Shown piece after piece: positions 7,155-7,933 of a DNA stretch of 26,550 nucleotides. The notes below the pieces were generated by a model, which was not told where the DNA came from, made no database searches, and saw only the letters and a program-made list of their open reading frames with translations. Within the stretch, counting starts at the first letter, position 1. Every line of letters starts with the position of its first letter. Made by a program: the position numbers and the translations under genes. This DNA is from Nitrospinota bacterium (GTDB taxonomy: Bacteria > JADFOP01). Where the stretch lies: assembly GCA_022562795.1 (NCBI GenBank), contig JADFOP010000030.1:1-26550 (forward strand), given 5' to 3'.

Positions 7155-7933
7155 CACCGATCCTGGAGATCGACGCCGTCACAAAGAAATACGGGGGCCT
7201 TACCGCCGTCGACGCAGTCAGCACCACGGTCCCCAGGGGCTCGATCTTCGGCCTGATAGGGCCCAACGGGGCCGGCAAGACTACCCTCTTTAATTGCATC
7301 ACCGGTATGGTTAGGATGAGCGCCGGCTCCATCCGGCTTCTGGCGACGGACAGGCCAGTCGGGCTGGCTGGCCTCAAGCCAGAGGCCATTACTTCCCTCG
7401 GTGTGGCCCGGACATTCCAGACCACACGGATATTCAACAACTTATCGGCCCTCGACAACGTGCGCATCGGCCGCCACGCCCGAACCCGCTCCTCCCTCGC
7501 GGGCGCGGTCCTTCGAACCCCGGCCCAGCGTGCCGAGGAACGCCATATCACCGAGGAAGCCATGGCGGTTCTTGCCTTCGTGGGCCTCGGATCCAGGGGC
7601 AACCAAATCGCCAGCTCGCTCCCCTACGGCGACTAGCGACGGCTCGAGGTCGCCCGAGCGCTCGCCACAGAGCCACACCTGCTGCTGCTCGACGAGCCGG
7701 CCGCCGGGATGAACCCACAGGAGAGCCGCGAGCTCATGCAGCTCATCGAGCGCATCCGCGACCGGGGAGTAACGGTCCTGCTCATCGAGCACGACATGAA
7801 GGTGGTGATGGGTGTCTGCGAGCATATTGTGGTCCTCGACTACGGAAGGAAGATAGCCGAGGGGCTACCCGAAGAGGTCCGCCACGACCCTCAAGTGATC
7901 GAGGCCTATCTGGGAAAGGGAGCCCATGCTTGA
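7151..7933 (+). pseudogene. livG: LivG-type ABC ATPase interrupted by an in-frame amber codon
   Basis: One of the two ATPases of the liv importer. The frame from GTG 7151 to TGA 7933 is 261 codons, normal length, with no frameshift, but codon 162 (7634-7636) is TAG. Before it are Walker A GPNGAGKT (37-44) and the Q-loop RTFQ (Gln90); after it are RRLEVARALA, Walker B LLLLDE (177-182) and the switch His in IEHD (His214). The TAG falls in the ABC signature SLPYGD-stop-RRLE where homologs have Gln (YGQQRR/YGDQRR), so a single C-to-T change of CAG explains it. As written, the product would be 161 aa without the signature or Walker B. Alternatives are a sequencing error, a population variant, or readthrough. 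livH in this operon and the pilin gene use TAG as true stops, so a general recoding is unlikely. Confidence 0.9.

Follow-up and report, generated by a model that had tools for sequence, protein, structure and literature searches.

Does the amber codon inside a transporter ATPase gene of a Nitrospinota bacterium mean that TAG is translated in this organism, is the gene broken, or is the base wrong in the assembly? The question is raised by livG in the window, which is the whole stretch of 26,550 nucleotides that was analysed (contig JADFOP010000030.1). The gene belongs to an operon of the order livK-livH-livM-livG-livF, the order of LivKHMGF transporters. A sequence-only reading had described it as a full-length frame interrupted once, by TAG at codon 162, with all other motifs legible and with the permease genes and livF whole. 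The features concerned are the following.

3856 to 7154, plus strand: livK (binding protein) and livH and livM (permeases), intact
7151 to 7933, plus strand: livG frame, GTG start, 260 codons plus TGA; branched-chain amino acid ABC transporter ATPase with one interruption
7259 to 7282, plus strand: Walker A GPNGAGKT of livG, from the translation; upstream of the amber codon and kept in the predicted truncated product
7619 to 7633, plus strand: presumed ABC signature slot LPYGD (LSGGQ-type), from the translation; directly upstream of the amber codon
7634 to 7636, plus strand: in-frame TAG, codon 162 of livG; CAG in the congener
7679 to 7696, plus strand: Walker B LLLLDE of livG, from the translation; downstream of the amber codon and missing from the predicted truncated product
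7790 to 7792, plus strand: H-loop His214 of livG, from the translation; downstream of the amber codon and missing from the predicted truncated product
7926 to 8630, plus strand: livF, intact; 8-base overlap with the end of livG, beginning at the livF ATG

This description holds: the TAG is the sole in-frame stop within the livG frame, Walker A, Q-loop, Walker B (LLLLDEP) and H-loop (EHD) are all readable, and livH, livM and livF are intact. The placement of the amber codon within the signature motif stood only in part; it adjoins the signature, but it occupies the position of the first residue after LPYGD, which we take to be the LSGGQ-type slot, and so lies outside the motif as narrowly defined. 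With the TAG between signature and Walker B, no ATPase is encoded here that unites Walker A, signature, Walker B and H-loop in an unbroken chain. With the stop read as any residue, the translation matches the LivG profile over its full length (NF008449, residues 2-256, 278.9 bits, E 3.1e-83), yet it differs from that family in the TAG at codon 162 and in a score below the equivalog cut-off of 362, so the substrate is not proven by it. In a whole-genome Pfam search for ABC ATPases (PF00005), livG was the only one of 30 ABC_tran matches with an internal stop.

The residue at codon 162 and the age of the stop

The expectation of glutamine at this position was confirmed among LivG-like sequences: of the 110 aligned, the present livG included, 101 carry Gln (CAG in 76, CAA in 25); R, L, A, M or K takes its place in eight, and a stop in the present livG alone. 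The phylum is sparsely sampled: its three genomes in the comparison set are the present one, a congener and a single further member. Comparison with close relatives, which the earlier reading had proposed, shows that the congener, 82% identical, carries CAG at the site and no stop, and that its liv operon is intact with the same gene order. A single C-to-T transition from the congener's codon would explain the TAG, as had been suggested. A contig search for livG homologues returned distant ones only, and a plasmid search nothing close.

The frame shows no decay. Between the present genome and the congener, dN/dS of livG is 0.26 before the stop and 0.18 after it, while the values of livK (0.156), livH (0.098), livM (0.156) and livF lie within 0.10 to 0.16. 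In a relative-rate count with 30 outside homologues, livG has 13 derived changes in the present genome and 11 in the congener, a balance similar to that of livF (9 and 7), livM (10 and 7) and livH (5 and 5). Shared departures aside, each lineage has a single livG departure from a 90%-conserved column. The balanced counts and the retention of conserved columns indicate that livG was under selection until very recently, and the excess of changes expected of a long-dead gene is absent; the stop is thus either very recent in the lineage or an error.

Decoding of TAG in this genome

The genome is a draft of 2.15 Mb in 84 contigs, 97.1% complete by a completeness estimate. The search for a suppressor tRNA, likewise proposed by the earlier reading, gave none: no CUA anticodon is present among the 44 standard tRNAs and tRNA-Sec of this 97.1% complete genome, and the anticodon of tRNA-Sec is TCA. 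Several apparent candidates were rejected. The entry 'tag' listed for a tRNA-Leu is an anticodon UAG, which reads CUA; a lower tRNA threshold brought in nothing beyond a tmRNA fragment, a 21-base fragment and tRNA-Sec; the weak match at C23:29593 is the 3' part of tmRNA, and that at C37:15725 is a partial copy of tRNA-Sec. Pyrrolysyl-tRNA synthetase (PylS) was not found in the genome either, with no match to TIGR03912 and a best score of 20.5 bits to TIGR02367, against a cut-off of 178. Two genes of the RF1/RF2 release factor family are present, counted by family and not split into RF1 and RF2. TAG is in regular use as a terminator and ends 269 of 905 long open reading frames (TGA 389, TAA 247), so that neither a depletion of TAG ends nor a missing release factor family is seen. 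In the window, ubiA (19617-20489, minus strand) terminates in TAG, and livH was correctly said to end in a true TAG stop (6075-6077).

In-frame stops were screened over 1.86 Mb in stretches, 87% of the genome (13% was missed). A stop was retained where coding-like sequence of at least 40 codons lay on each side in the same frame and that frame was the best of six; frameshifts were outside the scope of the screen, and its output was judged partly by eye. Most candidates were dismissed by eye as boundaries of same-frame neighbour genes (e.g., pgk/tpi, thrS/infC, guaB/guaA) or as antisense frames. As a positive control, the screen recovered seven probable selenocysteine UGAs and is therefore able to detect recoding. 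In-frame TAG codons in conserved genes were confined to livG and tadB in these 1.86 Mb. The latter, in a Flp-pilus cluster (contig C31, position 2905, L196, minus strand), has a T2SSF domain spanning the stop, and its intact counterpart in the congener has GAA (Glu) at the amber position. A recurrence of in-frame TAG at Gln sites is accordingly not seen in the screened 1.86 Mb; with Gln at one site and Glu at the other in the congener, the two ambers have no shared meaning, which argues against reassignment. The claim that the genome as a whole is not recoded at TAG thus stands, on the lack of a CUA tRNA, the two release factors, the frequent use of TAG as a terminator and the single further amber. 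One more frame, on contig C46 (6032 and 5759, L267, minus strand), is interrupted by two TGAs; no Pfam match was obtained for the 121 residues surrounding the first of them, and the frame may be a pseudogene or is otherwise unexplained. In all, about three genes of the draft genome, livG among them, appear to be broken.

Explanations of the livG amber codon

The evidence is the draft assembly consensus of one genome of the species, in which a fixed mutation, a minority variant taken up by the assembler and an error would look alike. From the codon itself, the homologue residues, the missing decoding machinery and the missing decay we infer a real and recent nonsense mutation, a strain or population variant, to which we assign a probability of roughly 0.6: a very recent CAG-to-TAG transition would have turned codon 162 of livG into a stop in the sampled strain or population. 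The other broken genes in the genome, the tadB amber and the C46 gene with two TGAs, make real gene loss plausible. The earlier list of explanations (sequencing or assembly error, recent null, population variant, suppression) was sensible, although suppression is now disfavoured by the lack of a CUA tRNA, the release factors, the common use of TAG as a terminator and the single further amber. The serious rival is a single wrong base in the consensus or assembly of an organism that has CAG and a normal LivG; it comes second to the recent nonsense mutation and is tentatively set at about half its weight. An error, too, would leave the frame otherwise intact and free of decay. The assembly is a draft in 84 contigs, and a random single-base change in a gene of the window creates a stop in about 3.3% of cases; at an error rate of 1e-5 per base, which is an assumption, about 0.6 nonsense errors per genome would be expected. 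Against an error, the site is far from the ends of its 26.5 kb contig, and there is no broader pattern of broken frames among the genes screened in 1.86 Mb.

Explanations in which the codon is read fare far worse. Programmed or leaky readthrough by the normal Gln tRNA, setting the dosage of LivG, would draw on the near-cognate insertion of Gln at UAG that occurs in bacteria at low efficiency, but the stop has no counterpart in the congener, and the small amount of product would probably be too little for transport; downstream RNA structure as a readthrough signal was ruled out, as the 84 bases after the TAG fold no better than shuffled sequences (z -0.16). We regard such readthrough as very improbable. 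Amber suppression, a code 15-like reassignment of TAG to Gln, or pyrrolysine at the site would suit a frame that stays open past its stop without decay and, for Gln, the residue found elsewhere; set against the tRNA complement, the absence of PylS, the release factors, the many genes ending in TAG and the two ambers in 1.86 Mb with Gln and Glu in the congener, its chances are slimmer still. Equally slight is the prospect that an ordinary tRNA, or a suppressor encoded outside the assembled contigs, usefully reads the livG amber, TAG being ambiguous in the lineage with livG and tadB as its users; UAG ambiguity of this kind, if true, would be rare for a bacterium that has release factors. A study of crAss-like phages gives metaproteomic support for code 15, in which TAG is Gln (PMC9523058). 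The present livG resembles that case in having TAG where homologues have Gln, while the genome differs in lacking a suppressor tRNA, in its common use of TAG as a real stop and in ambers that do not recur. The Codetta survey notes that every bacterial code change described up to then reassigns UGA, and it traces spurious stop-reassignment calls in some yeasts to pseudogenes with in-frame stops (PMC8629427). The livG amber fits this pattern of pseudogene stops that mimic reassignment. It shares with single nonsense alleles and young bacterial pseudogenes the one stop, the preserved frame, the one transition and the lack of a second lesion, with no notable difference from them, and is an ordinary finding; no usable figure for nonsense rates in metagenome-assembled genomes was found in the literature. 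Its main value lies in caution, in that a striking amber at a conserved motif proves to mark one of few broken genes.

Under a recent nonsense mutation, translation should stop after 161 residues. The product would retain Walker A, Q-loop and signature and lack Walker B, D-loop and H-loop, and should therefore not hydrolyse ATP, leaving this copy of the LivKHMGF transporter off or strongly reduced. Since the ATG of livF overlaps the end of livG, the amber may, through translational coupling, also lower the translation of livF. The loss could be softened by at least one further, intact Liv-type ATPase pair (LivG/LivF-like), on contig C66.

Probable selenocysteine UGA codons and the tRNA-Sec region

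The recoding for which this genome does hold evidence is that of UGA to selenocysteine, not of TAG. The in-frame UGA sites are as follows.

Contig C7 (L184), 12714 and 11295, minus strand
Contig C6 (L181), 15871, minus strand
Contig C32 (L258), 7641, plus strand
Contig C11 (L280), 42579, plus strand
Contig C20 (L249), 27503, minus strand
Contig C23 (L199), 695, minus strand

The seven probable selenoproteins are GrdA and GrdB of glycine reductase, two AhpC/TSA-type proteins, a DsbA-like thioredoxin, a UxxC thioredoxin-like protein and a methyltransferase, the last two called by sequence motif only. No SelB scored above the cut-off in the genome, the best matches (175 and 174 bits) both being 401-aa frames of EF-Tu size; given the tRNA-Sec and the Sec-type UGAs, selB may be unassembled or divergent. 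An intact tRNA-Sec gene lies at 1708-1797 of contig C37 (L216, L217), and a copy of its 3' part is found 14 kb downstream in the same orientation (15725-15811). Between the two are urease genes and an ABC ATPase pair of LivG/Urt-like type, and the segment resembles an island that has integrated at the tRNA-Sec gene.
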